Of a stretch of DNA of 64,000 nt, positions 22,464-51,422 are shown piece by piece. The position numbers and the translations under genes are program-made. The notes beneath the pieces were generated by a model that worked only from the letters and a program-made list of their open reading frames with translations, was not told the origin of the DNA and made no database searches. This DNA is from Tachypleus tridentatus. Taxonomy: Eukaryota > Arthropoda > Merostomata > Xiphosura > Limulidae. Position 1 is the first letter of the stretch; every line of letters starts with the position of its first letter. The stretch spans positions 24,320,034 through 24,384,033 of the forward strand of contig NC_134829.1 of NCBI RefSeq assembly GCF_004210375.1, read 5' to 3'.

Positions 22464-24919
22464 GTTTACGTTTTATTGACACGTCTACTGTTATTTTAAT
22501 CACAAACTCGTAGTTTGTAGTACTTGAACAGTAAACACATAAACATATAACTTATCATGTGAAAATGCACATGGCACAACGTTGTTAATAGTATCACTAC
22601 TCTAAAGTTTAGAAAATCTTCATGTTTCGACCCACCATCTTAATGAAAAATTGATATCGATGTACCATACAGTAATATAACACTTATATTTAAGTGTTTC
22701 CACTCATCTATAAAGTTACAACTTAGGAATCAATTACGTGCTGTAAACGACATAAACATGCGCAGAAGAGAATAGTTTATATTGAAGTAAAATTGAAATT
22801 AACATCATTTACAACGCTAATAACTTTGAGAAAGAGCCGATGCTGTTTTTCTTCATTTTAACATTCGTGCTTCTTACAACGTTTTCATAACGTCATATGA
22901 TTATATCCTGTATTATTGTTTAAGATTAGAAAGATTCCATTAAAATGTCATAAAAGTTACTACTAATTGTGAACACTAATGTAGTTTATTGTTCTAACAG
23001 AGAAGATTGGTGGTAGTTTTGCTCCTAAAAACTTGCAACAAAGTTATTAATATGTAATGATCATAATTACAGGTTTATAAACAATTATTTTGTCGTTCAT
23101 TATGAGTCAATAGTTTTATAAACTTTTCGATATGCAATGAATTTGTTGACAAATAATTCTAAATATATTCATCACTCGAAAGTCCCTCAAGTATCATACA
23201 ACAAAAAAAAAAAGATCAGTAATTACAGATTACAGTGCTTCGGACATCATTTCAAAGGTGTTTTAATGTTAGAACTAGTCTATCCACACGTTCAAAATAA
23301 GGGTACGTTTCATGTGGATAGTAAGTATAAAAATTGTACTTCAAGGACTGTAAACTCAAACACCAAATTTTGCTTGTTACTTATAAACTCCTTGCATATT
23401 AGTCCAAAGGACTGTGTAGGATGTACCACCAGAGAACTCATATAGCTGGGAAATTTGAGAACATGTAGTGCACGACATATCTTGATATATATCCTATCTA
23501 CTATCAGTGTGTATATTAGTACAGTTAGTATAGTTGATTGTGAGAAGCTGTTACAGCTTTGGAAGATACTGATAATAGCTAACCACAGGCTTTAAATAAA
23601 TAGATAGGTTTTAGTGGTTCCACATCGTATGAGACTATTTCTCGCGTGCTTAAAACCAAATGATAAATAAATTATTTTATATTTAAGAATGATCAATTGT
23701 GTAATTTGTAAAAAATATTAAAATTTCGAAAATTCTTCTGTGTTAATAAATAATGTTTACATAAAATTCATAGAAACAGTAACAACATCCAAATATCTTC
23801 TTAGATGTGAAACAACTATACTAATATTCTAATTATACGACATAAATACGTCTTAGTGTTTCTGTATTAATTTTGTAAGAGAACACTTTGTGTTTCAATC
23901 GTCTGTTTTCCTACTTAACTTTTGAGAGAATTATGTACATACGTGGATTAAAATTACATTTTCATATATATATATATGCAATCTTCAGTTGGAATCACTG
24001 CGAAAAGTGAAATGTCTCACCATTTGTACATTTCGTTTATTGGTATAAATTCAATCGAAAAATGTAACTACTGTAAGAAGACATCAACTCTAAAACTTTC
24101 CTTCTCCATTGTGATTGAGCACGATGTTCTTTTGACACATCACGGTTAATCTTATACTTTGTAATTAAAGCTACTGTAACATTTAAATGAATAATTAAAT
24201 TTACAAAGCATTAAATTTGTTGTATATTTAGACATGAGACATTTTTATTGTTCACAGTATTCAGTAAATATTAAAATATAGTGATATTCTTCAAGTTTTA
24301 GTGTCTATATTGTTGTGTATCTAGAATATCTAGCAGTGAAAAAAAGAGATTAAAACAGAAAGGTTAACTATTTTACTTCTAGCAGAATAAGTTGTTTAAA
24401 CCCTCATATGAATAACAACTGGAAAACTGTTCAAGTTCACAGGATCAATGTTAATTATTTTTGCTTTATTCTGTATTTCAAGCAAGAAACGAAAGAAGAG
24501 TTGTGCTTCGTTATCAGTTTATTACAATATTTTACAAATACAAAAACAGTGGTATGTAAACCAATTGAAAGTTGTTAATATTTTTTTATCTAAATGAATG
24601 ACACATTAAGTTCTTGTTACCTACTAATGGAGACTTAAGGACAGGCGAAATCAAAATTCCATAAATATTTTGAATAATTTCATCACATAAATCAGTTACT
24701 AGTTATATTTTCAATTCGTACACTATAAGCGTTCAATACAAACAATCTATGGTTCTAGTGCAAAACATGTAAACAAGAAATCTATGTTCCGAGCTGTAAA
24801 ATGTGTAAACAAGATAAGTTAACACTATTGCGTTTTAAAACAAATAGACTGTTCTAGACTAATAAATAAGATAAGTCAAATTGTATTTCGGTATATTATA
24901 ATTCGAATGACTTTATATT

Positions 24920-25005
24920 TGGCTGTAATCCAACGCTGGCAACGAAGAGCACTGTGGTCGTTACTACAGGGAAACTGAGCAAGGTCCAGGTTCGATGTTT
25001 CATCC
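24920..25005 (+). repeat. tRNA-like SINE fragment inside R
   Basis: 'ggctgtaatccaacgctggc' to 'caggttcgatgtttc' has B-box-like spacing and is repeated at the matching place in every R copy (near 28750, 39945, 43775, 54965 and 58780). Low similarity to the other SINEs. Confidence 0.4.
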
Positions 25006-25042
25006 TATTGATAAATATAACAAAACAGCCATTCTTTTTTTT

Positions 25043-25150
25043 GTTTAAAACAAAGTCACTTTCTGCTATCTTTTGTGTCTACCGCGGGAAATCGAACCCA
25101 AAGTGTTAGTGTTATAAATTCGTAAACTTATCACCATACCAACGGTGGAC
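25043..25150 (-). repeat. Family-2-like SINE inside R
   Basis: The minus strand reads a head 'ccgttggtatggtgataag', B-box-like 'gggttcgatttcccgcgg', then 'gacacaaaagatagc'. It is present in all R copies (near 28875-28983, 40070-40178, 43905-44003, 55090-55198 and 58915-59023), so it predates the amplification. Confidence 0.65.
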
Positions 25151-25407
25151 AAAACTAGTTTTGTCGTGATTTTCACTGGATAAATGCGTTTCGCTACTAC
25201 TGAATTTTTACTTTAAAACTTATCAAATTGAAGAATCCTCTAGCAGTGATATCCTTACAGTTAAGAGAACTCTGATCGAATGAATGCATAAGTTAATAGT
25301 TTTGCTTTTCCGTCATTATAATAATTTTTCTTAGTACTACATTATTTTGTAAAGTTAATTACCAATCTGCGTTCTAATTACATAATATATCCCCAAACAT
25401 ATACAAT

Positions 25408-25561
25408 ATGTTTTAGGAACCTTCAATGTGCTACCTTGTCAAAGGTTTTCTAATCCACATATACCAAATCTACGCCGTTAGTACCCTCTACATAAACAGT
25501 CAAAGAATGTCAAATGATTTGTAAGTCAATATTTTCTTTCTGTGAAACCATGTTGACTGTC
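25408..25561 (-). mobile_element. CR1-type LINE fragment: reverse transcriptase around motif A (R copy)
   Basis: The minus strand encodes DSQHGF followed by LTNHLTFF, then in a shifted frame VDLVYVD.KTFDKVAH and RFLKH. These match the DSQHGF..GRSC.TNL stretch and the VD.VYLDFQKAFDKV..H motif A of CR1-class LINE polymerases, with the catalytic Asp codon kept. One frameshift and stops are visible. The rest of the polymerase is not here. Confidence 0.75.
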
Positions 25562-26291
25562 TACTGAAAGTGTAGACTTTGTTACGTGGCCAGCTATGGT
25601 GAGAAAGCTCTTGATACCAGCATTCCGCTACAAGAAACAATTGATTTATGGTCAGTACTAATGTCTCCGTCACAGTGTGGGTTTTACAAATTCATATATT
25701 TTATAATTAAAGAATCAATTTCACATTTAATATAATTTTAATCTGAATTTTACTGTTAATATGAAATCAAACTTGTAACTAATATGTTTAAGTTTTTGTT
25801 TATATTACATAAAACAATTAAGAAATTGTAGTATTCAATTTAAGACACTTTATTATAGGACGTAGGTTCATTGTATATTTTTTTGTAACTCACTAAATGC
25901 TGAAAATGGTTTCAAATATTTCTATTTAAAGAAGGTCAATAATATAACCATAAATATATTTAAAGAAATTATAGCAATTAACTATGATGTTTGAATAATG
26001 TATAGCTTAACAAAAATTCACATACAGAATATTTATGTAAAGCCAGCACTTTTAAATATTGATATATACGGAGGACGAATTCACCGTTAAATATAGTCTG
26101 AGTTTTTAAACCCAGTGCAGAATTTGATGTTTCATCAAAATATATACATGGCTGGCTTTGTACAATCTGTTAATACTTACATTATACTGGAAGTTTTATT
26201 CACCAGTATTCGTAGATAATTAATTTCTTAATAAAAGTTTGTGATATAAGTTGTACTGTTAATATTATTTCAGCTATTGGGCATAACTTGT

Positions 26292-29068
26292 TTACGTTTT
26301 ATTGACACGTTTACTGTTATTTTAATCACAAACTCATAGTTTGTAGTACTTGAATAGTAAACACATAAACATGTAACTTATCATGTGAAAATGCACGTAA
26401 CAACGTTGTTAATAGTATGACTGCTCTAAAGTTTAGAAAATCTTCATGTTTCGACCCACCATCTTAATGAAAAAGTGATATCGATGTACATACAGTAATA
26501 TAACACTTATATTTAAGTGTTTCCCTCATCATAAGGTTACAGCTTAGGAATCAATTACGTGCTGTAAACGACATAAACATGCGCAGAAGAGATAGTTTAT
26601 ATTCAAGTAAAATTGAAATTAACATCATTTACAACGCTAATAACTTGGCGAAAGAGCCGATGCTGTTTTCTTCATTTTAACATATTCGTGCTTCTTACAA
26701 CGTTTTCATAACGTCATATGATTATTTCCTGTATTATTTAGCCTTTAAGATTAGAAAGATTCCATTAAAATGTCATAAAAGTTACTACTAATTGTGAACA
26801 CTAATGTAGTTTATTGTTCGCAACAGACAAGATTGGTGGTAGTTTTGCTCCTAAGAAACTTGCAACAAGTTATTACAGATATGTATTGATCATAATTACA
26901 GGTTTATAAACAATTATTTTGTCGTTCATTATGAAGTCAATAGTTTTATAAACTTTTCGATATGCAATGAATTTGTTGACAAATAATTCTAAATATATTC
27001 ATCACTCCGAAAGTCCTCAAGTATCATACAACAAAAAGATCAGTAATTACAGATTACAGTGCTTCGGACATCATTTCAAAGGTGTTTTAATGTTAGAACT
27101 AGTCTATCCACACGTTCAAAATAAGGGTACGTTTCATGTGGATAGTAAGTATAAAAAATTGTACTTCAAGGACTGTAAACTCAAACACCAAATTTTGCTT
27201 GTTACTTATAAACTCCTTGCATATTAGACCAAAGGACTGTGTAGGATGTACTACCAGAGAACTCATATAGCTGGGAAATTTGAGAACATGTAGTGCACGA
27301 CATATCTTGATATATATCCTATCTACTATCAGTGTGTATATTAGTACAGTCAGTATAGTTGATTGTGAGAAGCTGTTACAGCTTTGGAAGATACTGATAA
27401 TAGCTAACCACAGGCTTTAAATAAATAGATAGGTTTTAGTGGTTCCACATCGTATGAGACTATTTCTCGCGTGCTTAAAACCAAATGAAAAATAAATTAT
27501 TTTATATTTAAGAATGATCATTTGTGTTATTTATAAAGAATATTAAAATTTCGAAAACTTGTTCGATGTTGATAAATAATGTTTACAGAAAAATTCATAG
27601 AAACAGTAACAACATCCAAATATCTTCTTAGATGTGAAACAACTATACTAATATTCCAATGATACAACATAAATACGACTTAGTGTTTCTGTATTAATTT
27701 TGTAAGAGTACACTTTGTGTTTCAATCGTCTGTTTTCCTACTTAACTTTTGAGAGAATTATTACATACTTGATATAAAATTAAAATATTCATATATATAT
27801 ATATATGCAATCTTAAGTTGGAATCACTGCGGAAAGTGAAATGTCTCACCATTTGTACATTTCGTTTATTGGTATAAATTCAATCGAAAAATGTAACTAC
27901 TGTAAGAAGACATCAACTCTAAAACTTTCCTTCTCCATTGTGATTGAGCACGATGTTCTTTTGACACATCACGGTTAATCTTATACTTTGTAATTAAAGC
28001 TACTGTAACATTTAAATATATAATTAAATTTACAAAGCATTAACTTTGTTGTATATTTAGACATGAGACATTTTTATTGTTCACAGTATTCAGTAAATAT
28101 TAAAATATAGTGATATTCTTCAAGTTTTAGTGTCTATATTGTTGTGTATCTAGAATATCTAGCAGTGAAAAAAAGAGATTAAAACAGAAAAGTTAACTAT
28201 TTTACTTCTAGCAGAATAAGTTGTTTAATGCCTCATGTGAATAACAACTGGAAAACTGTTCAAGTTCACAGGATCAATGTTAATTATTTCGCTTTATTCT
28301 GTATTTCAAGCAAGAAACGAAAGAAGAGTTATGCTTCGTTATCAGTTTATTACAATATTTTACAAATACAAAAACAGTGGTATGTAAACCAATTGAAAGT
28401 TGTTAATATTTATTTTATCTAAATGAATGACAAATTAAGTACTTGTTACATACTAATGGAGACTTAAGGACAGGCGAAATCAAAATTCCATAAATATTTT
28501 TAAATATTTTCAATGACATAAATCTGTTACTAGTTTTATTTTCAATTCGTACTTTAAGCGTTCAATACAGACAATCTATGATTCTAGTGCAAAACATGTA
28601 AACAAGAAATCTATGTTTCAAGCTGTAAAATGTGTAAACAAGATAAGTTAACACTATTGCGTTTTAAAACGAATAGACTGTTTCAGACAAATAAATAAGA
28701 TAAGTCAAATTGTATTTCGGTATATTATAATTCGAATGACTTCATATTTGGCTGTAATCCAACGCTGGCAACAAAGAGCACTGTGGTCGTTACTACAGGG
28801 ATACCGAGCAAGGTCCAGGTTCGATGTTTCATCCTATTGATAAATGTAACAAAACTGTTATTCCTTTGTTTGTTTAAAACAAAATCACTTTCAGCTATCT
28901 TCTGTGTCTACCGCGGGAAATCGAACCCAAGATGTTAGTGTTATAAATTCATAAACTTATCACCATACCAACGGTGGACAAAACCAGTTTGGTCGTGATT
29001 TTGACTGGGTAAATGCGTTTCGCTTATACTGAATTTTTACTTTAAAACCTATCAAATTGAAGAACCCT
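26292..29068. repeat. R repeat, A-type copy, unit 1
   Basis: Corresponds to R positions 1 to about 2770 and then stops at 'tcaaattgaagaac', where the gene module begins. It carries A-type variants ('cagtcagtatag', 'aatgcctcatgtgaataac', 'gtttcaagctg'). The shared frame here is 26967-27227 (86 codons, no known domain). It lacks the LINE fragment because R is cut before it. Confidence 0.9.
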
Positions 29069-29190
29069 CCGCTTATACAGCGGTAAGTCTACGGATTTAG
29101 AACGCTCAAATTAGGTGCTCGATTCCCCTTAGTGGGCTCAGCAGATAGCTCGATGTGGCTTTGCTTTAAGAACAACACACACACACACAC
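29069..29190 (+). repeat. Family-2 SINE at the left edge of the gene module, unit 1
   Basis: Head 'cagcggtaagtctacgg', B-box-like 'ggtgctcgattcccc', end 'gatgtggctttgctttaag', then an (AC)n tail. It begins exactly where similarity to R ends. The same element is at 44093-44213 and 59103-59224. Confidence 0.88.
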
Positions 29191-29874
29191 ATTAAAGACA
29201 GAGAAAATTTCCTTACTCTGAGAAAATTCGTCCCTCATCTTGATCAGAATGAACAGCTGATAGAACTTCGTTGTTACGTTTTTCACTGCCCAAAACCAAC
29301 AACTGAAATTTCAAAAAAATAACAAAAAACAATCGGGACATGAGAAAAATGGAATGGTCTTCACAACATAGTAACTTGTGGTAAGTTACTTCAGTTTCAA
29401 CCATCTCTTCTTTACTTTATTAGGTTTCATAGGTAGAATGTATAATCGTTAAAAACAACTTCAAAACATGAACATTATTTACTGTTTACTAGTGAATACA
29501 TTACTAAGTATAAAAATGTTTAAATATTCACAGTAAAACCAACTTACTGAATTTAAGAGTTAACAAAAATAAGCTAAATTTGTAAATACGACAGTTACAA
29601 ATAAATACGCTTTTTCTTTATAACAAAGGCTTTACAATTACAAATTAAATGGAGACATCGGTTAATCTTGTAATGCTCACAGTTACAAATAAATACATTT
29701 TTGATAAAATAAAGGCTGCCGTGTATGAAATATTAAATAGGCTGTGCATGGCATCAGATTTAATTGAAGAAGTCAAAGTAATAGCTTACTAATAGATTCA
29801 CGAACATTTATGGTACAATTAAATTCTATGCCTACCTTTGCAGAATGACCAAGTTCCTTATGTAATAAAATATC
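29191..29874. other. 3' flank of the gene, no separate gene seen
   Basis: AT-rich sequence between the SINE and the polyadenylation signal of the minus-strand gene. Short frames here carry no recognisable content. Confidence 0.5.
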
Positions 29875-29880
29875 TTTATT
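29875..29880 (-). terminator. Candidate polyadenylation signal AATAAA, gene copy 1
   Basis: The minus strand reads AATAAA beginning 48 nt after the stop codon. The same hexamer occurs at 44897-44902 and 59909-59914 in the other copies. Cleavage position unknown. Confidence 0.6.
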
Positions 29881-29927
29881 AATTTTGTCAGCTGGAAGTC
29901 TGAGGTTATATGCAGTTTTCTCCTGAT

Positions 29928-32900
29928 TCAAAACTCAAACTCTTTTGTGGTTCTTTGATTCTCTAAAGTGTATCTCGTGAGGTCATGATAATTTACAACT
30001 TTTCTTCTCAAAGTTTCTACTGTTAACAATCCTACTGTTTTTTACAATTATCTCCCGAGGTTCGTTTGTCTCAAACGTTCTCCGATTTACATTAACTATC
30101 ATTTCAGGATAACACATGTTTCTTGATCTCCGACTTTCCAAAGCTCTAATTTCCGAACAATATCTTTGAATGTTATCATATTTTTCGACACGAAGTCTTC
30201 CAAAGCCCTTACTATATTTTAGTTTTCTTATTTCTACAGCTCTAACTTGAGAGCCATACTTCCGGTTTGTTCTCCGGCTTTCCCGAATCATAGATACGGG
30301 ATTATCTCTTTTACCACTAACTCGATTTTTCAAGTTTCTCCATCGCGTTTGTGTTATTTCTCCAAGCTCCAAAACTCTTGTTGTCCTTGCACTTTTCCCT
30401 CGATTTTCAAGACGTCGAATGTTAATTCTACTTGATTTGTACAATATGTAACTTTTCACAACTGTGCTTTCTGAGTGAAGAATATCTGATAGTGACGTAA
30501 TTTCCAGAGAGCTGGTATCAACATGGTGTCTATAATTTGTTCTCTTTTGTTCCGAATCCCATCTTTCTGTAGCTCTTATATTTTTCAAAGTCTTGGTTTC
30601 ATACATTCCTCTGTCTGTCTTTCTTGTGATTTTAAGAGACCTGATCTTATAATATTTCAGAGATCTTTGTCTCACTTCTGGTTTGTTTTGAGAACTGCGC
30701 TTTAGCTCTCTTCTCTGTTGTTTCAAATATCGTCTTTGTGAAAGTTGATGTTGCTCCAAAACCATGATTTCATATTCGGTTGTTTCTGCGTTGAGCCTTT
30801 CATATCTAAGTAATTTGTAATAGCCTCCTTCGTTTAGAGAAATAGTTTCAGAATATCTCCCACTTGTTCTTGTAAACGGTTGTAACGTTCTATATTGTGA
30901 GTTACTTCTATCACTTCGTCGATTTTTTGACGTTTCACTGTTCGTATTTTTTACATTTTTAGATCTCTTGTCTTGGAGTTATCCCTTAGAATTACTTTTG
31001 TTTATTCAGAAGAAACCTACGATGTAAATTTCGTCTTATGTTTGAAATGACGTATTTAAAAGTTTTCAGAACTGAGTTATGCCCTTCATTTATTCTGTGG
31101 ATTTCTAAAGACCTAGTTTGAGTGTTTCGTATTTTGATTCTAGTTTGTAGTTCATTTGCATGTTGTAGTGAATCATGCATCTTTTGATTCTTTGGTTTTC
31201 CCCACCTCTAACTTGAGAAACACGTCTCTCATTTGTCCTACTGTAACCTAATACTTGCTTTTCTGAACCATTCCTTTTATTTCTTCTTATAGATCCCACA
31301 GTCCTAGTCTCAGTCTCGAATCTTTCAAGTGGTTGTCGACGTTCCCCCGTTTCTCTTTCTGAAACCCCAAGAACGTTTCTTCTTTGAATTTTCGAAGTTC
31401 TAATCTGTAAAACACGCCTATCATTTAACCTACTGGCGTCGAAATTATGTCTTTCAGTAACGCGAATCTTATTTCTTTTCAAAGCTTCTAAACTATCCTT
31501 TTGATAATCGCGTTCTTCAAGTGTTTTGAGGTATTCCCCTGCTTGTCTGTCCACAATAAGTCTCTCGCTGCTTCTTCGGTTTTCCATGGTTCTACTTCGA
31601 GAAGCACGTCTGTCATTTGACGGGCTTAATTCCGTTATTTGCCCTACAGAATCGTAGATCCTATTTGTTCTTAAGTTTTCGGAACTTCTAGTTTGAAATT
31701 CGCATCTTAGGAATGTTCTGTGATGTCCCTTAATTTCTCTTTCAGGAACATTTAGGTCGCGTTTTCTTTCGTCTGCCGAAGATCTAATTTGGAAAACACG
31801 TCTTTCATTTAACCTACTGAATTCTAATGTTAGCCTTTCAGAACCATGAATGTTGTTTGCTCTCATGTTTCGTAAAGTTCTTGTTTCAGTCTCACGTCTC
31901 TCGAGTGTCCTACGCCGTTCTGCTGTTTGTCTCTGCATAATACGCCTCTCATTTGTTCTTCGATATTCCATAGTTCTGCTATGAGAAATACGTCTGTAAC
32001 TTGTACGAGTGATTTCCGATGTTTCACCTTCTGAGTCATGCATCTTGTTTGTTTTCATGTTTCTTATATTCGTAGCTTCAGATCCGCGTCTGTCGAGTGT
32101 TCTGTGGTGTTCTTCAGTGTGTCTTTCAGAAATGCTTAGTTTGTTATTTCTTTGGTCTTCTGAAGTTATAGTTTGAGAAACACGTCTCTTATTTGACCTA
32201 ATGAATTCTAGCTTATTCATTTCAGACTCATCCATCGTTTTATTCTAATATTTTCTACAGTCGTAGTTTCATGTTCTCGTCTTTCAAATGTTCTGTGATG
32301 TTCACCTGTTTGTGTCTCCAGAACACCTTTTTGTTTGTTCTCCGGCTGTTCAACCTTCTACTTTGAGAAACACGTCTATCATTTGATCTGATGCTATTCA
32401 ATGTCTGCCTGCCAGAGTCAGACGTTTTGGTTCTTCTAAGGTTCTTGAAAGTCTCAGTTTGAAAGTCGTGGTTTTCGTTTGATGTGTCCTGATACAATAT
32501 TTGCGTCTGAGAATCATTCATTTCCGTTTCTTTCCAGTGTTCACTATTAAAATTCATCCTGTCCATTATTCTTCTGCCTCCAGAAACAAGTCTTCAGATA
32601 ATTTTCTTCGATTTTCCAAATTTCCACTTTCAGAATTATATTGCTGTTGCGTTCTTCGGTTTTCTACGACTGTATTAACAGCACGTCGGTTTCCTGAAGC
32701 TCTAGTTTCTTGCACACTTCTTATGGAATTCGATTTGTTTTCCATATTTTTTCTATATAATTGATTGCTATTAGAAAATTCAGAATCATTAATAGCTGTG
32801 TGTTTAGAGTTACGTCTGCTAATTATTCTTTGACTTCCCAAAATTTTCCTTTCATTATTTTTCTCAGTATTCCTACGATTTTGAGAATTTCCTGTTTCAC

Positions 32901-33351
32901 ACGTGGAAGTTCCTACGTTTGGTAATAATTTACTTCTACAACCAAGTCTTCCAATCCTTCCATAGTAAATCAACATTCTCTTTTCTGAATATCTTTGCTC
33001 AGGCTTCTTATTGGATTCGTGGGATATTTGTTTTCCTTCATTTTCATCAAGTTTTGGAACTCTTACTTGTCTTCTTTGTCCTAAACTTGAAATATAACCA
33101 TATTCTCGCAGTTGGTTTGGAATTCTTTTATCTCCTGCTGAATTGGATCTGTCATCAGGTTGTTTTTTGTAGTAATTTGATCGATAATCAGGAATTTTAT
33201 ATCTGACCAACGTTTCGTCTTCTTTCTGAAGTTTAGTTGGATAAGACTCTCGTAGAGCAGTTTCATCACATTCTACGTCACACCCGTTCAAATGCCAAAT
33301 TATAATGCATGATAGAATTACAATCCCAATTGGGGGCTTTCGTCTCACCAT
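29928..33351 (-). CDS. Secreted Arg-rich 64-residue-repeat protein, copy 1
   Basis: Family and function not recognised. The start ATG at 33351 follows an in-frame TAA 12 nt upstream. Residues 1-25 look like a signal peptide: basic start VRRK, then a hydrophobic run IGIVILSCIIIW. A basic, low-complexity region of about 300 residues (R, N, E, S, K) with four cysteines follows. Seven tandem repeats of 64 residues lie at 31076-32416. The tail is about 380 residues, basic, and ends TKEFEF-stop at 29928. Compared with copies 2 and 3 this copy changes frame about five times: near 32580 (one base short, frame ends LFLEAEE), near 32330, near 32240, near 31185 and near 30995. Several changes are in runs of T or A. 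Either the gene is decaying or the assembly has indel errors. Secretion is inferred from the signal peptide only; a matrix, cuticle, egg-coat or defence role would be a guess. Confidence 0.78.
31076..32416 (-). repeat. Seven 64-residue protein repeats (14 x 32), gene copy 1
   Basis: Each repeat spans 192 nt and splits into two 32-residue halves. Conserved half-repeat positions are Arg10, Arg14-Arg15, Gln or Glu18, Arg20, Glu23-Asn24 and Arg26. The repeats differ strongly in sequence (often under half identical) yet keep their length, so length has been constrained or the amplification is old. This copy is 1,341 nt against 1,344 in copy 3, because of small indels. Confidence 0.85.
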
Positions 33352-33754
33352 ACTATGTCTTTAACTCTTCTGAAAAACAATAAAGATAAATTATCTGCAA
33401 TTAATTCGACTATTTTTGCAAAATGTTATTTTCTAATTAATTATGTTGTGAAATATGTAGTTATTGTTAAGATTGGTCTTCTTGCTGGTTTTTTTATGTG
33501 ACCGTTATTTATTTTTAAGGAGAATTTTATAAATTAGAGAAATATTATTTGTTATTTCTGTCATGTGTATATCATTTAAATTTGATTTAAATATTCTCTG
33601 TCGAATAATTATCCCAAATCCATCAAGTTTATTAATTGATTGAAAGTGCGATGAATCCACTTTGCCCTTCCTCTTAAGACGTGGTTATAGGAGAAAGGTT
33701 TTATTAATAAAAATATAATAAGTTTTGATATTTTTCTTATTAATCAGAAACCTA

Positions 33755-34180
33755 GTACCTGGCATGACCAGATTATTATGACGCTCGACTCGTAATATCT
33801 TGGTCCCTGGTTGGAATTCCCATCACACCAAAACATGGTCAACCTTTCAACTGCGAGAGCGTTGTAAGTGACGGTCAATCCCATTTTTCGTCGGTTAAAG
33901 ACTAGCCAAAAGTTGGCGGTGTTTCAACATGACTAGCTGTCTTTTCTCTATTATTACAATGCTAAATTAGGGACAGTTAGCATAGCTAGCCCTTGTGTAG
34001 CCTTCCAGTAGCACAGCGGTATATGTGCGGACTCACAGCGCTAGTAACCGGATTTCGGTATCCGTGGTGGGCAGAACATAGATAGCTCATTGTTCAGCTT
34101 TGTGTTTAATATAAGAAACAAATAAACAAACAAAGCCCTCGTGTAGCTTTGCGCGAAATTCATCAAATAAACGAACAAAA
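33755..34180 (+). repeat. Main SINE (family 1) interrupted by another SINE, unit 1
   Basis: An older, diverged family-1 copy starts 'gtacctggcatgaccag' and ends 'gcgcgaaattcatcaaataaac'. It is split at 34001 by a second SINE. It lies in the candidate intron, opposite in strand to the gene. Confidence 0.88.
34002..34133 (+). repeat. SINE of a third type nested in the main SINE, unit 1
   Basis: tRNA-like head 'cagtagcacagcggtatatg', B-box-like 'ggatttcggtatcc', end 'cagctttgtgtttaatataag' and (CAAA)n-like tail. It is flanked by a 14-bp duplication of the host SINE with one mismatch (33988-34001 and 34134-34147). The matching copy in unit 2 lies near 49022-49154. Confidence 0.9.
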
Positions 34181-35062
34181 CTCTACAATGAGTTTAGTGC
34201 CCTCTGCCCACATAGGTTTCGGAAGCTGTTTAAAATTACCAACCCTCAAAGTTACCTTTCAGTCACATGAAGTGACCAAGTCATTAATGTGCTTGGTATT
34301 TTAACAGTTTGTTTTATTTAAGAAGTTATGCTTACTCGCGAACTGATACCGCAAAATCTTTTATGTACGTCAACTATTAGTACTTCTCAGAAGTAACAGA
34401 GTGTACCTTAGAATAAACAGATAGTGGGTGGTAGGGTGCTACTGACAGGTTGACTTGTCTCTGGTCTGTATTTCAAAAGTGAAGAAGTCGTCAGACAGCC
34501 TTTTAGTGTTTCTGTAAATTCGTACAAAGTTATTTTATTTGAAATGAAGATTAAAATAACTGAATATTGAAAGTTGGACTACGAAGCAGTAATGTGACTA
34601 TTAGTATTTAATTTGGCTTATGTATTAGCCCTAAAAGTTATAAAAGCTCACGAAGTTAAGTTTACCATTATTGACAAACATAGCATATTATGTGTTTCGC
34701 GAAGCCAACTAGTTGCAAAGAATGTAAGAAAATCTTACAATGTTTACTGACTCAATATTGAAATAAAACTGGAATTTTGGATTCATGCAATCAATTGCTA
34801 GAGGTAGACAATTTCAAACGTTTCATATCTCTTGTATTCTAAAACAATGAGGTATAATATGCAGTGATTTTTCACCCCATAAGAATTATGCTAAAAATTT
34901 TGCAAAGTGTGATAGCATTGAAATACTCTGTCCTTTTATTTTAAGTATAACCCAAAAACGTTTAATGGTTTAGAAACAACATGACATTGGGCCATAAGAC
35001 TCCAACAAAATAATTGCATTTAAGTTATCAAACTGAAACCAAAAGAATTCTGCAACACTTAC

Positions 35063-35330
35063 CAAACTGTCAAACGGTTAACTGTTCTCAAAGTGACGGA
35101 TGTTCTACACTGCGCCTTTTTCTTTTGAGATTTTTCTTTCAAAAGGAAGCTGGATATGCTACTGATGGTACTAGGTTCCGTCTCGAAAGACGTTCCCTTT
35201 ATTGAGATTTGTGTCGCTAGAGAGCGCCTTGGTAACGAATGTTGTAAGTCTGCGCGTTCCTTATCTTCTTCCACAGAAAACCTCTCAACAAGAAAACCTA
35301 CACACTTCTCCTGCAAGACGTTACAGTTAA
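35063..35330 (-). other. Candidate non-coding first exon and promoter-proximal region, gene copy 1
   Basis: A patch clearly richer in G+C and CpG than its surroundings ends at the strong splice donor at 35062. A minus frame runs through it (35059-35316) but has no ATG start, and it reads into the donor as TGG-TAA, so I regard it as untranslated. Two plus frames overlap it. I saw no TATA box; the transcription start is not located. Confidence 0.42.
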
Positions 35331-35848
35331 TCCGCTTGTGGTTTGGTTGAGCACGATAATCTGGCCAGTAATCAATCGTTCTTGGTCTAATTTTAGCACT
35401 GATTGTTTAATGAAAGTTTTCAGAAACTTGATTGATCTCTTTCAATATGGATTATCACTTCAGATGACCGCTCTACTTTTAACTTTATTGGATTTAAGAT
35501 GAATGAAGTATATTCTACTTCCACGGAAGAATTACACATGTTAGAACAGATATTTCAGAATAAAGGTTCAGAATTAATGTAATCGTAGTGGATAATGAAG
35601 AGATAATACATATTTAATAATTACACACAAAACTCTTAAACTTATAAACTATTTGTTCTGTAATAATAACATATAGCTATATGAAAACTATAAATTTTGT
35701 TTAGAATCATTTAGAAATAACAAGTGCTGTTTCCAAATAGATACCACATGTTAAGTATTTAATTTTATCTCATAAAAGCAGTTGTTTATATTTGTCATAC
35801 TTCCTCCCTCATGTCCTTCAACAACACGAGTTCAGTGATTTCAATACA

Positions 35849-36133
35849 ATGTGTTTCATATGCAAGACTTTTTCTAATTTGGTTGAAAATAATTCCAGTT
35901 TTTTCCAAATACTTTCATTTCTAGAGAACGAAACGATGAGAACTTTATCTTCCAATAAACTTGAGCAGCATTGTCATTTCTATATCCCGTTAAAGACTTC
36001 TAACAAAAGTTTCACTGCAGAAAAATCGCAAGCCGTAAGGTATAAAATGGCCAGCGAAATCTATGGGCAGTTTACTAGTTGTCGTGAACTTTTGCCCGAA
36101 AGAATATCTATTGAAAAAGAACATTCACATTAA
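35849..36133 (+). other. Unrecognised 94-codon plus-strand frame, unit 1
   Basis: A frame starting at ATG 35849 (open from 35792) reads MCFICKTFSNLVENN and ends EKEHSH-stop. It lies just upstream of the repeat-protein gene and divergent from it. The copy in unit 2 (50871-51155) is identical in protein. Because the units are about 99% identical, this says little about selection. No domain, signal peptide or splice context is visible; it may be chance. Confidence 0.2.
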
Positions 36134-36332
36134 ATATTAGAAAATAATTATTAGAACTGAGAATAGAAAGACGAATCAGCACAGTCGAGAACAGGAGGCG
36201 TTTGTAATAATTTTATTTCCTGAGAGGCTTAATATACTCAAAATCGTCTGAGAAAGTTTTTGAAACTCCAGTTACCATATCCAGACTTTTCTGAGAAGAA
36301 ATGGTGTTTCTCGACACGTTTCTTTCCTCATA

Positions 36333-36400
36333 AACCGGGTTTCACTACCCGTGGTGGTTGCATCGTAAATAATGCGTTGTGTAACATTTAAATTTTAAAC
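36333..36400 (+). repeat. Third-type SINE fragment, unit 1
   Basis: 'aaaccgggtttcactacccgtggtgg' matches the B-box region and following part of the SINE at 34002-34133; the rest is diverged. Repeated at about 51355-51422. Confidence 0.5.
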
Positions 36401-37167
36401 AAATTCTATCTTTTCATTAAAACTCTGACGATATTCATTAATTTATTTAAAGTAACTCTATTTAAGAATTTAAATCACAATTTATTTATATTTACTGATT
36501 TTGTATTCGTTTCTCTTTACTTTTTAATAACATTATTTTGTATCTTTTGTTTGTTTTGTATCCAGTGAAAGTTTAATGTTATTAAACTAATCTTCAATAC
36601 GTTTCTCCTAAACTTTAATCTCTAAGTACCAATATCTGTTCATGTGAACCATCTTGCTTTACAATAATAATAAAACAAAAATTTTATCCCGAACAAAAGA
36701 CGTTTTTCTTATATGAAAAAGATTATCCAAGAGAAGGAACAAAAAACATTGAATAAAGTCTTCATATCAATAATACTTTTTTATTTGAAGCAATGCATAG
36801 TCTTAATAAGATACTCCTTCTTTTCTAACTTCAAGAGCTAATTAGAGAGAATTCTTAAGTTAGTGTTATGTAAAAAGTAGAAATTCAATTATCAAAATTG
36901 ATATTTCACAACCATAAGTTAGATAAGTATTACTGATTAGAAATAAAACAGTACATTTCAATCTTACAGTATTCTGTATCTACATTATACTTTAATACAA
37001 CAGAAATATACTGTAACAATTATAGAATTAATCAGTTATCCAAATTATATTGCCTTAGTTTCATATAACATCGAAATTTGCTTACTAATTCTGTTAAAAG
37101 TGTAATTTAATTTTTTTTAAATTTTAAATTAACGAGGTATATTATGAGGTTAGAACTTTAACGAGAC
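36401..37167. other. Right part of the gene module, no gene seen
   Basis: Very AT-rich. No frame or known repeat was found up to the point where R-like sequence resumes. Confidence 0.45.
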
Positions 37168-37260
37168 TTGCAGTGACTTTCTTACTGTGAAGAGAATTCT
37201 GATCCAATGAATACATAAGTTAATAGTTTAGCTTTTCCGTCATTACAATTATAATTTTGG
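37168..37260. repeat. R-like remnant at the right edge of the gene module, unit 1
   Basis: 'cttgcagtgactttcttactgtgaagag' through 'gcttttccgtcatta' aligns at about 80-85% with R just after the point where copy A was cut (25241-25330). The two flanks of the gene module are therefore consecutive in R. Repeated at 52184-52276. Confidence 0.7.
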
Positions 37261-37914
37261 GGATACATTACACCTCAAGACGAACATCAACGTCTTATTA
37301 AACTTGTAATACGTATTGATTTAGCTGTAACAGGGCGAGGTGAAGGTAACAAAGAGAGTAATTCTGATCAAAGAAGACTGTTCCAAGTCAAAATCATATT
37401 ATAATATACTACAGAATTTATATGTTGAATAAAGAAAGATCCATGGTCTAAAACCATGGATAAACATAATTACATGAATACTTATTGCTTTTAAATGAGG
37501 ACCAAAATTATATCTGAAAATGTATATAAATAATTATACTAATTGACTCTGTTTTTGTTCTTTGTTAATTGAATTTTAATTATGTGAATAACAAATTTAC
37601 TTTAATACATAGTTTGAGTTTTAAATATTAGATCAGAACTTGAAATTCAATTAACATGTGTATATTACATAACATAATTTATGTGACAACAACGGAACAA
37701 TTGGTCCTTCATGGCTGTCCCATCCTCTAAACTAATTGAATGTGGTAAATAAAATATAGAAATAAAACTACGTCAAAACCGATCTTTGTCACTCACATAG
37801 TTATCAAAGTTTAACTGAAAATCACTCACATTTTCTACCTCCACAGAATCCAAAGGCCGACTATTTCTCCAGAAATATATATCTGTTTTAGCTGAAGATG
37901 ACTCCTATCCTATC

Positions 37915-38195
37915 AAAACTTATATTTATATTCCCTAGTATCATGATTCTCATAATTAAGTGTGAAGAAACGTGATACATCATCAATATAAATTCCATTA
38001 ACAATCCTAAACACCTTAATCAGATCCCACTTTATGCCTTAATCAGTGACCTATACAATGAAACCATGACCTCTTTAGACTTGTGTTCAGTATTTATATA
38101 AATACAACCTAATACCCTATTTGCCTTACCACTGGTAACATTACTCTACTTGGATACCTTAAGATACACATCAACCACTACACCAATATCCTTTT
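37915..38195 (-). mobile_element. CR1-type LINE fragment: C-terminal polymerase region, unit 1
   Basis: The minus strand encodes KDIGVVVDVYLKVSK, then GKANRVLGCI, then SKEVMVSLYRSLIK. These match the LGV.VD..LK.S.Q...A..KANR.LG.I and K..E....LY.SLVRP region after the CR1 polymerase core. After an internal deletion and frame change comes DLIKVFRIVNGI and VSRFFTLN, matching RGD.IE..KI..G....FF. Stops and a deletion make it dead. Similarity to the R repeat starts about 30 bp to its right. Confidence 0.82.
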
Positions 38196-38224
38196 ATTTC
38201 ATAACACTGTTATATATTCAAATT

Positions 38225-41200
38225 TCATATAACAAAAAGATCAGTAATTACAGATTACAGTGCTTCGGACATCATTTCAAAGGTGTTTTAATGTTAGAAC
38301 TAGTCTATCCACACGTTCAAAATAAGGGTACGTTTCATGTGGATAGTAAGTATAAAAAATTGTACTTCAAGGACTGTAAACTCAAACACCAAATTTTGCT
38401 TGTTACTTATAAACTCCTTGCATATTAGTCCAAAGGACTGTGTAGGATGTACTACCAGAGAACTCATATAGCTGGGAAATTTGAGAACATGTAGTGCACG
38501 ACATATCTTGATATATATCCTATCTACTATCAGTGTGTATATTAGTACAGTTAGTATAGTTGATTGTGAGAAGCTGTTACAGCTTTGGAAGATACTGATA
38601 ATAGCTAACCACAGGCTTTAAATAAATAGATAGGTTTTAGTGGTTCCACATCGTATGAGACTATTTCTCGCGTGCTTAAAACCAAATGATAAATAAATTA
38701 TTTTATATTTATGAATGATCATTTGTGAATTTGTAAAAAATATTAAAATTTCGAAAATTGTTCTGTGTTAATAAATAATGTTTACATGAAAATTCATAGA
38801 AACAGTAACAACACCCAAATATCTTCTTAGATGTGAAACAACTATACTAATATTCTAATAATACGACATAAATACGACTTAGTGTTTCTGTATTAATTTT
38901 GTAAGTGAACACTTTGTGTTTCAATCGTCTGTTTTCCTACTTAACTTTTGAGAGAATTATGTACATACGTGATTTAAAATTACATTTTCATATATATATA
39001 TGCAATCTTCAGTTGGAATCACTGCGGAAAGTGCAATGTCTCACCATTTGTACATTTCGTTTATTGGTATAAATTCAATCGAAAAATGTAACTACTGTAA
39101 GAAGACATCAACTCTAAAACTTTCCTTCTCCATTGTGATTGGGCACGATGTTCTTTTCACACATCGCGGTTAATCTTATACTTTGTAATTAAAGCTACTG
39201 TATTATTTAAATGAATAATTATATTTACAAAGCATTAAATTTGTTGTATATTTAGACATGAGACATTTTTATTGTTCACAGTATTCAGTAAATATTAAAA
39301 TATAGTGATATTCTTCAAGTTTTTGTGTCTATATTGTTGTATATCTAGAATATCTAGCAGTGAAAAAAAGAGATTAAAACAGAAAGGTTAACTATTTTAC
39401 TTCTAGCAGAATAAGTTGTTTAAACCCTCATATGAATAACAACTGGAAAACTGTTCAAGTTCACAGGATCAATGTTAATTATTTTTGCTTTATTCTGTAT
39501 TTCAAGCAAGAAACGAAAGAAGAGTTGTGCTTCGTTATCAGTTTATTACAATATTTTACAAATACAAAAACAGTGGTATGTAAACCAATTGAAAGTTGTT
39601 AATATTTATTTTATCTAAATGAATGACAAATTAAGTTCTTGTTACATACTAATGGAGACTTAGGACAGGCGAAATCAAAATTCCATAAATATTTTGAATA
39701 ATTTCAATCACATAAATCAGTTACTAGTTATATTTTCAATTCGTACACTATAAGCGTTCAATACAAACAATCTATGGTTCTAGTGCAAAACATGTAAACA
39801 AGAAATCTATGTTCCGAGCTGTAAAATGTGTAAACAAGATAAGTTAACACTATTGCGTTTTAAAACAAATAGACTGTTCTAGACTAATAAATAAGATAAG
39901 TCAAATTGTATTTCGGTATATTATAATTCGAATGACTTTATATTTGGCTGTAATCCAACGCTGGCAACAAAGAGCACTGTGGTCGTTACTACAGGGGAAC
40001 TGAGCAAGGTCCAGGTTCGATGTTTCATCCTATTGATAAATATAACAAAACAGTCATTCCTTTGTTTGTTTAAAACAAAATCACTTTCAGCTATCTTCTG
40101 TGTCTACCGCGGGAAATCGAACCCAAGGTGTTAGTGTTATAAATTCATAAACTTATCACCATACCAACGGTGGACAAAACTAGTTTTCTCGTGATTTTGA
40201 CTGGGTAAATGCGTTTCGCTACTACTGAATTTTTACTTTAAAACTTATCAAATTGAAGAATCATCTAGCAGTGATATCCTTACTGTTAAGAGAACTCTGA
40301 TCGAATGAATGCATAAGTTAATAGTTTTGCTTTTCCGTCATTATAATAATTTTTCTTAGTACTACATTATTTTGTAAAGTTAATTACAAATCTGCGTTCT
40401 AATTACATAATATATCCCCAAACATATACAATATGTTTTTAGGAACCTTCAATGTGCTACCTTGTCAAAGGTTTTCTAATCCACATATACCAAATCTACG
40501 CCGTTAGTACCCTCTACATAAACAGTCAAAGAATGTCAAATGATTTGTAAGTCAATATTTTCTTTCTGTGAAACCATGTTGACTGTCTACTGAAAGTGTA
40601 GACTTTGTTACGTGGCCAGCTATGGTGAGAAAGCTCTTGATACCAGCATTCCGCTACAAGAAACAATTGATTTATGGTCAGTACTAATGTCTCCGTCACA
40701 GTGTGGGTTTTACAAATTCATATATTTTATAATTAAAGAATCAATTTCACATTTAATATAATTTTAATCTGAATTTTACTGTTAATATGAAATCAAACTT
40801 GTAACTAATATGTTTAAGTTTTTGTTTATATTACATAAAACAATTAAGAAATTGTAGTATTCAATTTAAGACACTTTATTATAGGACGTAGGTTCATTGT
40901 ATATTTTTTTGTAACTCACTAAATGCTGAAAATGGTTTCAAATATTTCTATTTAAAGAAGGTCAATAATATAACCATAAATATATTTAAAGAAATTATAG
41001 CAATTAACTATGATGTTTGAATAATGTATAGCTTAACAAAAATTCACATACAGAATATTTATGTAAAGCCAGCACTTTTAAATATTGATATATACGGAGG
41101 ACGAATTCACCGTTAAATATAGTCTGAGTTTTTAAACCCAGTGCAGAATTTGATGTTTAATCAAAATATATACGTAGCTGGCTTTGTACAATCTGTTAAT

Positions 41201-41317
41201 ACTTACATTATACTGGAAGTTTTATTCACCAGTATTCGTAGATAATTAATTTCTTAATAAAAGTTTGTGATATAAGTTGTACTGTTAATATTATTTCAGC
41301 TATTGGGCACAACTTGT
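38225..41317. repeat. R repeat, B-type copy, unit 1
   Basis: Covers R from about position 730 to its end and runs straight into copy A of unit 2. It shares variants with the leftmost R copy rather than with the A copies. The shared frame appears as 38150-38428 (92 codons with a different start). Confidence 0.9.
40433..40587 (-). mobile_element. CR1-type LINE fragment (motif A region), unit 1 B copy
   Basis: Same fragment as at 25408-25561: DSQHGF and KTFDKVAH on the minus strand. It lies upstream, in LINE orientation, of the C-terminal fragment at 37915-38195. Confidence 0.72.
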
Positions 41318-44092
41318 TTACGTTTTATTGACACGTTTACTGTTATTTTAATCACAAACTCGTAGTTTGTAGTACTTGAATAGTAAACACATAAACATGT
41401 AACTTATCATGTGAAAATGCACGTAACAACGTTGTTAATAGTATGACTGCTCTAAAGTTTAGAAAATCTTCATGTTTCGACCCACCATCTTAATGAAAAA
41501 GTGATATCGATGTACATACAGTAATATAACACTTATATTTAAGTGTTTCCCTCATCATAAGGTTACAGCTTAGGAATCAATTACGTGCTGTAAACGACAT
41601 AAACATGCGCAGAAGAGATAGTTTATATTCAAGTAAAATTGAAATTAACATCATTTACAACGCTAATAACTTGGCGAAAGAGCCGATGCTGTTTTCTTCA
41701 TTTTAACATATTCGTGCTTCTTACAACGTTTTCATAACGTCATATGATTATTTCCTGTATTATTTAGCCTTTAAGATTAGAAAGATTCCATTAAAATGTC
41801 ATAAAAGTTACTACTAATTGTGAACACTAATGTAGTTTATTGTTCGCAACAGACAAGATTGGTGGTAGTTTTGCTCCTAAGAAACTTGCAACAACTTATT
41901 ACAGATATGTATTGATCATAATTACAGGTTTATAAACAATTATTTTGTCGTTCATTATGAAGTCAATAGTTTTATAAACTTTTCGATATGCAATGAATTT
42001 GTTGACAAATAATTCTAAAAATATTCATCACTCCGAAAGTCCTCAAGTATCATACAACAAAAAGATCAGTAATTACAGATTACAGTGTTTCGGCCATCAT
42101 TTCAAAGGTGTTTTAATGTCAGAACTAGTCTATCCACACGTTCAAAATAAGGGTACGTTTCATGTGGATAGTAAGTATAAAAAATTGTACTTCAAGGACT
42201 GTAAACTCAAACACCAAATTTTGCTTGTTACTTATAAACTCCTTGCATATTAGACTAAAGGACTGTGTAGGATGTACTACCAGAGAACTCATATAGCTGG
42301 GAAATTTGAGAACATGTAGTGCACGACATATCTTGATATATATCCTATCTACTATCAGTGTGTATATTAGTACAGTCAGTATAGTTGATTGTGAGAAGCT
42401 GTTACAGCTTTGGAAGATACTGATAATAGCTAACCACAGGCTTTAAATAAATAGATAGGTTTTAGTGGTTCCACATCGTATGAGACTATTTCTCGCGTGC
42501 TTAAAACCAAATGAAAAATAAATTATTTTATATTTATGAATGATCATTTGTGTAATTTATAAAAAATATTAAAATTTCGAAAACTTGTTCGATGTTGATA
42601 AATAATGTTTACAGAAAATTCATAGAAACAGTAACAACATCCAAATATCTTCTTAGATGTGAAACAACTATACTAATATTCCAATGATACAACATAAATA
42701 CGACTTAGTGTTTCTATATTAATTTTGTAAGAGAACACTTTGTGTTTCAATCGTCTGTTTTCCTACTTAACTTTTGAGAGAATTATTACATACTTGATAT
42801 AAAATTAAAATATTCATATATATATATATGCAATCTTAAGTTGGAATCACTGCGGAAAGTGAAATGTCTCACCATTTGTACATTTCGTTTATTGGTATAA
42901 ATTCAATCGAAAAATGTAACTACTGTAAGAAGACATCAACTCTAAAACTTTCCTTCTCCATTGTGATTGAGCACGATGTTCTTTTGACACATCACGGTTA
43001 ATCTTATACTTTGTAATTAAAGCTACTGTAACATTTAAATATATAATTAAATTTACAAAGCATTAACTTTGTTGTATATTTAGACATGAGACATTTTTAT
43101 TGTTCACAGTATTCAGTAAATATTAAAATATAGTGATATTCTTCAAGTTTTAGTGTCTATATTGTTGTGTATCTAGAATATCTAGCAGTGAAAAAAAAGA
43201 GATTAAAACAGAAAAGTTAACTATTTTACTTCTAGCAGAATAAGTTGTTTAATGCCTCATGTGAATAACAACTGGAAAACTGTTCAAGTTCACAGGATCA
43301 ATGTTAATTATTTCGCTTTATTCTGTATTTCAAGCAAGAAACGAAAGAAGAGTTATGCTTCGTTATCAGTTTATTACAATATTTTACAAATACAAAAACA
43401 GTGGTATGTAAACCAATTAAAAGTTGTTAATATTTATTTTATCTAAATGAATGACAAATTAAGTACTTGTTACATACTAATGGAGACTTAAGGACAGGCG
43501 AAATCAAAATTCCATAAATATTTTTAAATATTTTCAATGACATAAATCTGTTATTAGTTTTATTTTCAATTCGTACTTTAAGCGTTCAATACAGACAATC
43601 TATGATTCTAGTGCAAAACATGTAAACAAGAAATCTATGTTTCAAGCTGTAAAATGTGTAAACAAGATAAGTTAACACTATTGCGTTTTAAAACGAATAG
43701 ACTGTTTCAGACAAATAAATAAGATAAGTCAAATTGTATTTCGGTATATTATAATTCGAATGACTTCATATTTGGCTGTAATCCAACGCTGGCAACAAAG
43801 AGCACTGTGGTCGTTACTACAGGGATACCGAGCAAGGTCCAGGTTCGATGTTTCATCCTATTGATAAATGTAACAAAACTGTTATTCCTTTGTTTGTTTA
43901 AAACAAAATCACTTTCAGCTATCTTCTGTGTCTACCGCGGGAAATCGAACCCAAGATGTTAGTGTTATAAATTCATAAACTTATCACCATACCAACGGTG
44001 GACAAAACCAGTTTGGTCGTGATTTTGACTGGGTAAATGCGTTTCGCTTATACTGAATTTTACTTTAAAACCTATCAAATTGAAGAACCCTC
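41318..44092. repeat. R repeat, A-type copy, unit 2
   Basis: Nearly identical to 26292-29068. The shared frame is 41993-42253 (86 codons). A second frame at 43252-43446 (64 codons), found also at 28228-28422, has no known content. Confidence 0.9.
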
Positions 44093-44213
44093 CGCTTATA
44101 CAGCGGTAAGTCTACGGATTTAGAACGCTCAAATTAGGTGCTCGATTCCCCTTAGTGGGCTCAGCAGATAGCTCGATGTGGCTTTGCTTTAAGAACAACA
44201 CACACACACACAC
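44093..44213 (+). repeat. Family-2 SINE at module edge, unit 2
   Basis: Copy of the element at 29069-29190 with the same boundaries and an (AC)n tail. Confidence 0.88.
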
Positions 44214-44896
44214 ATTAAAGACAGAGAAAAATTTCCTTACTCTGAGAAAATTCGTCCCTCATCTTGATCAGAATGAACAGCTGATAGAACTTCGTTGTTA
44301 CGTTTTTCACTGCCCAAAACCAACAACTGAAATTTCAAAAAAATAACAAAAAACAATAGGGACATGAGAAAATGGAATGGTCTTCACAACATAGTAACTT
44401 GTGGTAAGTTACTTCAGTTTCAACCATCTCTTCTTTACTTTATTAGGTTTCATAGGTAGAATGTATAATCGTTAAAAACAACTTCAAAACATGAACATTA
44501 TTTACTGTTTACTAGTGAATACATTACTAAGTATAAAAATGTTTAAATATTCACAGTAAAACCAACTTACTGAATTTAAGAGTTAACAAAAATAAGCTAA
44601 ATTTGTAAATACGACAGTTACAAATAAATACGCTTTTTCTTTATAACAAAGGCTTTACAATTACAAATTAAATGGAGACATCGGTTAATCTTGTAATGCT
44701 CACAGTTACAAATAAATACATTTTGATAAAATAAAGGCTGCCGTGTATGAAATATTAAATAGGCTGTGCATGGCATCAGATTTAATTGAAGAAGTCAAAG
44801 TAATAGCTTACTAATAGATTCACGAACATTTATGGTACAATTAAATTCTATGCCTACCTTTGCAGAATGACCAAGTTCCTTATGTAATAAAATATC

Positions 44897-44902
44897 TTTA
44901 TT
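44897..44902 (-). terminator. Candidate polyadenylation signal AATAAA, gene copy 2
   Basis: AATAAA on the minus strand, beginning 48 nt after the stop codon, as in the other copies. Confidence 0.6.
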
Positions 44903-44949
44903 AATTTTGTCAGCTGGAAGTCTGAGGTTATATGCAGTTTTCTCCTGAT

Positions 44950-47900: not shown

Positions 47901-48371
47901 TTGAGAATTTCCTGTTTCACACGTGGAAGTTCCTACGTTTGGTAATAATTTACTTCTACAACCAAGTCTTCCAATCCTTCCATAGTAAATCAACATTCTC
48001 TTTTCTGAATATCTTTGCTCAGGCTTCTTATTGGATTCGTGGGATATTTGATTTCCTTCATTTTCATCAAGTTTTGGAACTCTTACTTGTCTTCTTTGTC
48101 CTAAACTTGAAATATAACCATATTCTCGCAGTTGGTTTGGAATTCTTTTATCTCCTGCTGAGTTGGATCTGTCATCAAGTTGTTTTTTGTAGTAATTTGA
48201 TCGATAATCAGGAATTTTATATCTGACCAACGTTTCGTCTTCTTTCTGAAGTTTAGTTGGATAAGACTCTCGTAGAGCAGTTTGATCACATTTTACGTCA
48301 CACCCGTTCAAATGCCAAATTATAATGCATGATAGAATTACAATCCCAACTGGGGGCTTTCGTCTCACCAT
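44950..48371 (-). CDS. Secreted Arg-rich 64-residue-repeat protein, copy 2
   Basis: Second copy, with the same plan as copy 1: signal peptide (residue 8 Val instead of Ile nearby), four-cysteine N-terminal region, seven repeats (46093-47435), basic tail. Here the N-terminal region is open for 350 codons and runs without a break into the first repeat (48371-47319). This shows that the frame changes near this place in copies 1 and 3 are copy-specific. Breaks in this copy lie near 47345 (longer T run), near 47040 (one base short in a CCC/TTT stretch), near 46200 (T run), and in the tail near 45560, 45410 and 45330. A short altered segment near 45025 also differs from copies 1 and 3. Intron donor and acceptor are both present (50083, 48390). 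Function unknown. Confidence 0.78.
46093..47435 (-). repeat. Seven 64-residue protein repeats, gene copy 2
   Basis: Same repeat block as in copies 1 and 3; 1,343 nt because of one-base indels. Confidence 0.83.
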
Positions 48372-51354: not shown

Positions 51355-51422
51355 AACCGGGTTTCACTACCCGTGGTGGTTGCATCGTAAATAATGCGTT
51401 GTGTAACATTTAAATTTTAAAC
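51355..51422 (+). repeat. Third-type SINE fragment, unit 2
   Basis: Copy of the fragment at 36333-36400. Confidence 0.5.

Follow-up and report, generated by a model that had tools for sequence, protein, structure and literature searches.

In the horseshoe crab Tachypleus tridentatus, a gene present in tandem copies on a single contig encodes, in its majority reading, an arginine-rich protein with a centre composed of 16-residue units in strict register, along which the charges alternate at a period of 16/3 residues. Nine near-complete copies are present in the genome assembly, amino-acid change between them is nearly neutral and stop-making substitutions are scarce. The explanation that we favor, tentatively and at somewhat less than an even chance, is an expressed, fast-evolving, secreted basic repeat protein which would act as a polyvalent electrostatic scaffold, a role suggested by its composition, in which charge and spacing outweigh the exact sequence. 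The main and strong rival is a recently dead gene family, and both are weighed below together with three less probable alternatives.

Locus and Copy Number

The window, that is, the whole 64-kb stretch of DNA analyzed here, corresponds to positions 24320034-24384033 of contig C5 in a genome assembly of 2.17 Gb and 205 contigs. It contains three copies of the gene, all on the minus strand, within a tandem array (Table 1). The interval 29928-33351, to which an earlier note on this DNA had drawn attention, is exactly one gene copy, read on the minus strand from ATG to stop, although its frame is broken into open pieces of 261, 376 and 260 amino acids. A 352-base probe found nine places in the genome, all on C5, four at about 24.23-24.38 Mb and five at about 8.70-8.76 Mb. 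Beside these nine near-complete copies there are two degraded relatives on the same contig, a diverged and broken one at 24.21 Mb and a tail fragment at 24.243 Mb, and three gene pieces used as protein queries against the genome gave matches on C5 only; the genome copy counts are lower bounds.

Close pairs of copies between the two clusters differ at 19 positions (W1 and L012, L009 and L010) or 17 positions (W3 and L013), and L011 and L013, both belonging to the 8.7-Mb cluster, likewise show 17 differences. Near-identical distant blocks also occur in other families of this assembly, namely hsp70 on C8 and the loci L057 and L058 on C12, which are 96-97% alike, so uncollapsed haplotypes may explain part of the copy number. 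In addition, a gap of 500 N (21964-22463 of the window) lies just before the tandem array, whose edge may therefore be a join made in assembly.

Other repeats are found in the same window. A 2.8-kb stretch occurs twice per 15-kb unit with about 95% identity (22464-25240 and 26290-29069), and three frames from its counterparts in the next unit gave no match in a Pfam scan. A 60-bp tandem repeat of about 51 copies, 93% alike, occupies 11630-14662, and frames at 6461-6763 and 18445-18690 resemble tRNA-derived SINE remnants in their pattern; ARAGORN detected no tRNA and a search of Rfam gave nothing usable.

Table 1. Features of the repeat-protein locus, in window coordinates; residue numbers refer to the majority reading.
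Feature	Position	Strand	Remarks
Tandem array	23206..64000	.	15.02-kb unit, head to tail; copies 98.5-99% identical
Gene copy 1	29928..33351	-	ATG 33351, stop 29928; 7 frame-breaking indels versus majority reading
Gene copy 2	44950..48371	-	
Gene copy 3	59962..63393	-	510 aa open at 61076-62608, the gene's longest open run in the window
Hydrophobic leader, likely signal peptide	33280..33351	-	residues 1-24; read from the sequence by eye
269-residue lead	32474..33279	-	residues 25-293; final 16 residues already in register; isolated motif at residue 211
Repeat array	31037..32473	-	residues 294-773; 16-residue units in fours, giving six full units of 64 residues and a worn seventh
C-terminal tail	29931..31036	-	371 residues (774-1144); scattered 16-mer motifs
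AATAAA-type polyadenylation signal	29875..29880	-	about 48 nt past the stop; matching place in the other two window copies too
Polypyrimidine-AG, candidate 3' splice site of a 5' UTR intron	33370..33384	-	just upstream of the ATG; read from the sequence

Gene Anatomy and Composition

The majority reading was made from the commonest base over the nine copies, L010 being left out past column 3396, where its fetched stretch ends, and the three copies that lack one unit being left out inside that unit. It is a single open frame of 1144 codons which spans both the repeat and the non-repeat parts and maps to the window from 33351 (ATG) to 29928 (stop) on the minus strand. The frame starts with MVRRKPP followed by IGIVILSCIIIWHL, a hydrophobic N-terminus which, as read by eye, would agree with the earlier proposal that a leader precedes a probably secreted protein. 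An in-frame TAA lies between the polypyrimidine-AG and the ATG.

The protein proved to be as rich in arginine as had been claimed (16.1% over the whole majority protein, 18.5% within the array). Its composition is dominated by R, E, S, N and T, while glycine (3.6%), proline (1.5%) and tyrosine (3.4%) are low, and the net charge of the 1144 residues is about +110. In the array, the charged fraction is 0.391, T, S and N together make up 26%, and there are 2 cysteines in 481 residues. The whole protein has 48 dibasic [RK]R sites but 2 R-x-[RK]-R sites only.

The 16-Residue Unit and Its Register

Autocorrelation of majority residues 281-770 against 200 shuffles gave z values of 16.1 at lag 64 and 10.9 at lag 32, and also 8.8 at 16, 9.6 at 48, 6.8 at 80, 10.0 at 96, 8.9 at 112 and 18.4 at 128. 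Strong autocorrelation thus recurs at each multiple of 16 as far as 128, which sets the base unit at 16 residues (48 nt) and makes 32 and 64 its multiples. Each 64-residue repeat had been described as two halves of 32, and lag 32 is indeed strong, but the repeat is better written as 4 x 16. The exact repeat length of 64 residues, on the other hand, held: six complete units of copy 3 (61076-62608) align gap-free and a worn seventh comes after them, and in the majority reading these units, the worn seventh included, cover residues 326-773. At the level of the base unit, 30 consecutive in-register 16-mers (residues 278-757) score above the 0.15% shuffle level with a matrix trained on 27 of them, those at 278, 294 and 310 standing outside the training.

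The 16-mer follows roughly the pattern R-R-V-S-[EQ]-x-R-T-L-E-x-x-R-T-N-[KE], in which R occupies position 13 in 23 of 29 units and the R-R pair is loose, neither of its places being kept in more than 15 of 29. Outside the array the motif matches at seven places (residues 211, 916, 927, 1033, 1065, 1081 and 1125); the per-position shuffle P is <1e-4 for five of them and less extreme for 916 and 927, and chance predicts one or two matches as weak as these last. A 32-residue spacing had also been reported for the tail, where RAVEIRK (1039) and RALESRR (1071) are exactly 32 residues apart, but the tail as a whole is without a strong period (best lag 17 with z 2.9, lag 16 with z 2.4, lag 32 outside the best 12).

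The six units differ from their consensus by 271 base changes and 0 gaps, while 4.4 small in-frame indels are expected at the ratio seen among the copies (two per 122 substitutions), giving P 0.012; if the indel rate is halved, the expectation is 2.2 and P 0.11. L009 has a 21-base in-frame insertion within the array, and length changes of exactly one 192-nt unit are found in 3 of the 9 copies. Therefore, the alignment of the units suggests, short of proof, that unit length is under constraint.

The charges show z values of -4.8 at lag 8, -5.3 at lag 13, +4.5 at lag 16 and +7.5 at lag 32, that is, they alternate with a period of 16/3 residues, and hydropathy has a period of 16/6, with a moment at 135-140 degrees (z 6.5-6.6). 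These two periods fit neither an amphipathic helix nor a flat strand.

Homology and Literature Searches

The earlier remark that no named family with this pattern was known agrees with the searches, as there was no usable match in Pfam, NCBIfam, PDB, phage or viral data. None of five frame pieces exceeded the curated cut-off in Pfam-A, and the best match, PDZ_3, was ascribed to chance (E 0.051, 13.8 bits against a cut-off of 22.8). In NCBIfam, a library made for bacteria and archaea, none of three pieces matched at E up to 1. PDB searches by sequence and by profile gave nothing usable, and matches to mL40 (E 0.16) and a dynein intermediate chain (E 1.9) were dismissed as chance. Viral similarity was examined with the 510-aa piece: tblastn over 50,697 phage records gave nothing at E up to 1, and among viral contigs three stretches fitted a pattern and none was confirmed. 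In the literature, no such protein is described in the titles or abstract beginnings among the matches listed.

Within the genome, the unit consensus found 71 matches, of which 58 belong to the C5 clusters while 13 are weak and lie on C9, C4, C12 and C2 (E 0.0027-8.4). Ten of the 13, in five stretches, proved to be unrelated minisatellites of 24 or 48 nt and were rejected as distant paralogs; the match on C2 and two of those on C12 (137.99 and 138.03 Mb) were left out of this reading. At other places in the genome, L054, L055, L056, L057 and L058 are minisatellites of 24 and 48 nt that contain long open frames, and minisatellites of this kind are a possible source type for 16-residue protein repeats.

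Substitutions and Frame Breaks

The nine copies show 122 distinct substitutions, of which 91 are missense, 30 silent and 1 stop-making, against 86.7, 28.3 and 7.0 expected from their own spectrum. Stop-making changes are thus scarce (P 0.006) and silent ones show no excess (P 0.39); between copies, amino acids change neutrally. Divergence of the six full 64-residue units is almost equal at the three codon positions (0.33, 0.40 and 0.41), and for all seven units, the worn one among them, pairwise dN/dS is 0.38 to 1.71 (21 pairs).

None of the nine copies is open throughout, each having 2 to 7 frame-breaking indels. There are 33 distinct indels, 30 of them frame-breaking and 27 of these single-base. 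In the three window units, indels occur at 4.9 per kb in the frame and 5.5 outside, and substitutions at 14.8 per kb in the frame and 12.7 in the flank. As for homopolymers in these units, runs of four vary in 3/53 cases in the frame and 2/119 in noncoding DNA, runs of five in 3/9 and 10/27, and runs of six in 1/7 and 1/4; noncoding runs of seven vary in 0/4 and longer ones in 1/1, so the long runs are few and not clearly worse. Counted by eye, the largest class of noncoding indels is a run of five versus four (12 of 28). Natural slippage rises with homopolymer run length, yet long runs here are not clearly worse, and most indels are therefore read as assembly error. Most frameshifts may accordingly be long-read assembly errors rather than signs of gene death. 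Homopolymer error is a poor explanation for the single-base deletions in runs of 1 to 3 bases, which make up 8 of the 15 tabulated for the frame (out of 18, three being dropped because there was no consensus base at the place). Moreover, a stop is common to L009 and L010 and a deletion in a two-base run is common to L010 and L011; these two lesions, each common to two copies, look inherited.

An hsp70 tandem array in the same assembly (C8, 132.82-132.87 and 133.77-133.79 Mb, units of about 8.8 kb) serves for comparison. Eight of its copies are split at one shared place near residue 187 and the ninth is open throughout; of the split copies, two end early at a further common place and one at a place of its own. 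Copy-specific breaks are fewer there than in the repeat-protein gene, in a comparison made without base composition.

Predicted Structure

Prediction of the 510-codon frame (61076-62608), which had been proposed as a check, was carried out with AlphaFold2 on the single sequence and gave helices, but with low confidence (pLDDT 53.4, pTM 0.20). A 128-residue segment with 3-4 repeat rows reached a pLDDT of 72.3 and a pTM of 0.31, again low confidence, and was modeled as one helix at residues 2-81, with a pLDDT of 86-92 for the blocks between residues 11 and 70. Both models were treated as uninformative. A beta-solenoid was looked for and no strand appeared in either of these weak models, and Foldseek found no match in PDB for the 128-residue model, which is weak evidence given such an uncertain model. 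Over 432 array residues and 100 shuffles there was no moment near 100 degrees indicative of a coiled coil (z 0.0 at 100 and 0.3 at 105), and the array has no hydrophobic moment at 160-180 degrees. The opposite charges at i to i+3 or i+4 of a single α-helix (ER/K) were looked for in the charge product, which has z -2.9 at lag 3, where opposite charges are favored, and -0.8 at lag 4. The best array position is hydrophobic in 52% of the units, and on a charge-hydropathy plot the array lies on the disordered side (0.332 versus a boundary of 0.446).

Alternative Explanations

That the family died recently, a once-coding ancestor having been spread by segmental duplication so that all or nearly all copies are now pseudogenes, is the most serious alternative, although we consider it somewhat unlikely. 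It would explain why nine of nine copies are frame-broken, why missense and silent changes stand at the neutral proportion, why indel and substitution rates are similar inside and outside the frame, and why a stop and a deletion are common to pairs of copies; the deletions in short runs, the further degraded relatives at 24.21 and 24.243 Mb and the hsp70 array, which keeps long open pieces with few copy-specific breaks in the same assembly, also speak for it. However, stop-making substitutions are below chance (1 of 122 instead of 7.0), and the variation of five-base homopolymers in noncoding DNA looks like assembly error. Besides the scarce stops, a living gene is supported by the 1144-codon open majority frame, the likely leader, the polyadenylation signal and the in-register 16-mers.

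The remaining alternatives concern what is encoded. An ordered repeat fold or fibre with a 16-residue pitch, such as a solenoid, a coiled coil or a single α-helix, is unlikely: the gap-free register over 27 units of the majority reading, the periodic hydropathy, the charge period and the helix of the 128-residue model are in its favor, but both pTM values are low, moments at 100 and 160-180 degrees are absent, no position is hydrophobic in more than about half of the units, the array lies on the disordered side and the Foldseek search was blank. The results stop short of the earlier idea of a regular fold or fibre whose pitch is constrained: the length is kept somewhat better than the indel rate predicts (P about 0.01, or 0.11 at half the rate), but the array lies on the disordered side and the modeled helices have a pTM of 0.20 and 0.31. 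Likewise improbable is a polyprotein that is cleaved at dibasic sites to release many cationic peptides, antimicrobial ones for example, in hemocyte immunity. The leader, the strong basic charge and the numerous [RK]R sites would suit such a precursor, and horseshoe crabs carry many lineage-specific tandem clusters, several of them immune, according to PMC7210998; nevertheless, R-x-[RK]-R sites and cysteines are few, the moment of an amphipathic helix is lacking and the unit's R-R pair is poorly kept. Finally, since 48-nt minisatellites at other places in the genome also have long open frames, the gene could be a decayed minisatellite whose frame is open by accident; but the frame stays open upstream of the array (293 residues) and downstream of it (371), and stops are numerous in the two alternative frames, so this explanation is very improbable.

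The Proposed Scaffold and Known Systems

Under the favored reading, that of an electrostatic scaffold, the centre of the protein would have grown by tandem duplication, first of a 48-nt unit encoding 16 residues and then of 192-nt blocks of four. The protein would be expressed and exported, and would be a long polyvalent polyelectrolyte, flexible or loosely helical in shape, whose targets are polyanions or other charged partners within a matrix, coat, glue or granule. Since it would work as a polyelectrolyte that binds charged partners, the charge pattern and spacing could be kept while the side chains drift. A bolder version, which we regard as rather unlikely, is a horseshoe-crab-only extracellular polymer of this 16-residue unit and charge alternation, representing an undescribed, sequence-tolerant but length-strict material or matrix protein that arose by expansion of a 48-nt minisatellite in a coding exon.

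Several known systems resemble this gene in part. The horseshoe-crab tandem clusters of PMC7210998 are similar in having tandem copies on one contig that are apparently lineage-specific, but those named in its available text, carcinolectins, CEBP-PI, FucTC and p53-like genes, do not include an arginine-rich repeat protein. The X-tox proteins of moths are also arthropod proteins of imperfect tandem repeats; however, as far as the available text of PMC2728511 goes, their units are defensin-like, and with its 2 cysteines the array here is without a defensin unit. Disordered secreted adhesive and silk repeat proteins, such as the tick cement glycine-rich protein (PMC11794139) and dragline silk with its Arg-Tyr stickers (PMC12772222), share low complexity, secretion, which is likely for the present protein, and arginine as a possible sticker, but glycine, proline and tyrosine are low here, in a protein known from its gene. 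Single α-helix (ER/K) and coiled-coil proteins have mixed charges and a predicted helix in common with it, and differ in that the array has no 100-degree moment, is 39% charged and is 26% T, S and N.

If the protein is expressed, unit length and charge pattern are kept while amino acids drift neutrally between copies, and the family offers a direct way to learn how much sequence such a polyelectrolyte requires. Furthermore, frameshifts in near-identical tandem copies are no proof of gene death without accurate reads, and annotation may miss such families. In keeping with a chelicerate origin, the profile PF02035 of coagulogen, the clotting protein of horseshoe crabs, which had no match in 14 control genomes (the named ones are microbes), matches 19 places in the genome, the best with 100 bits.
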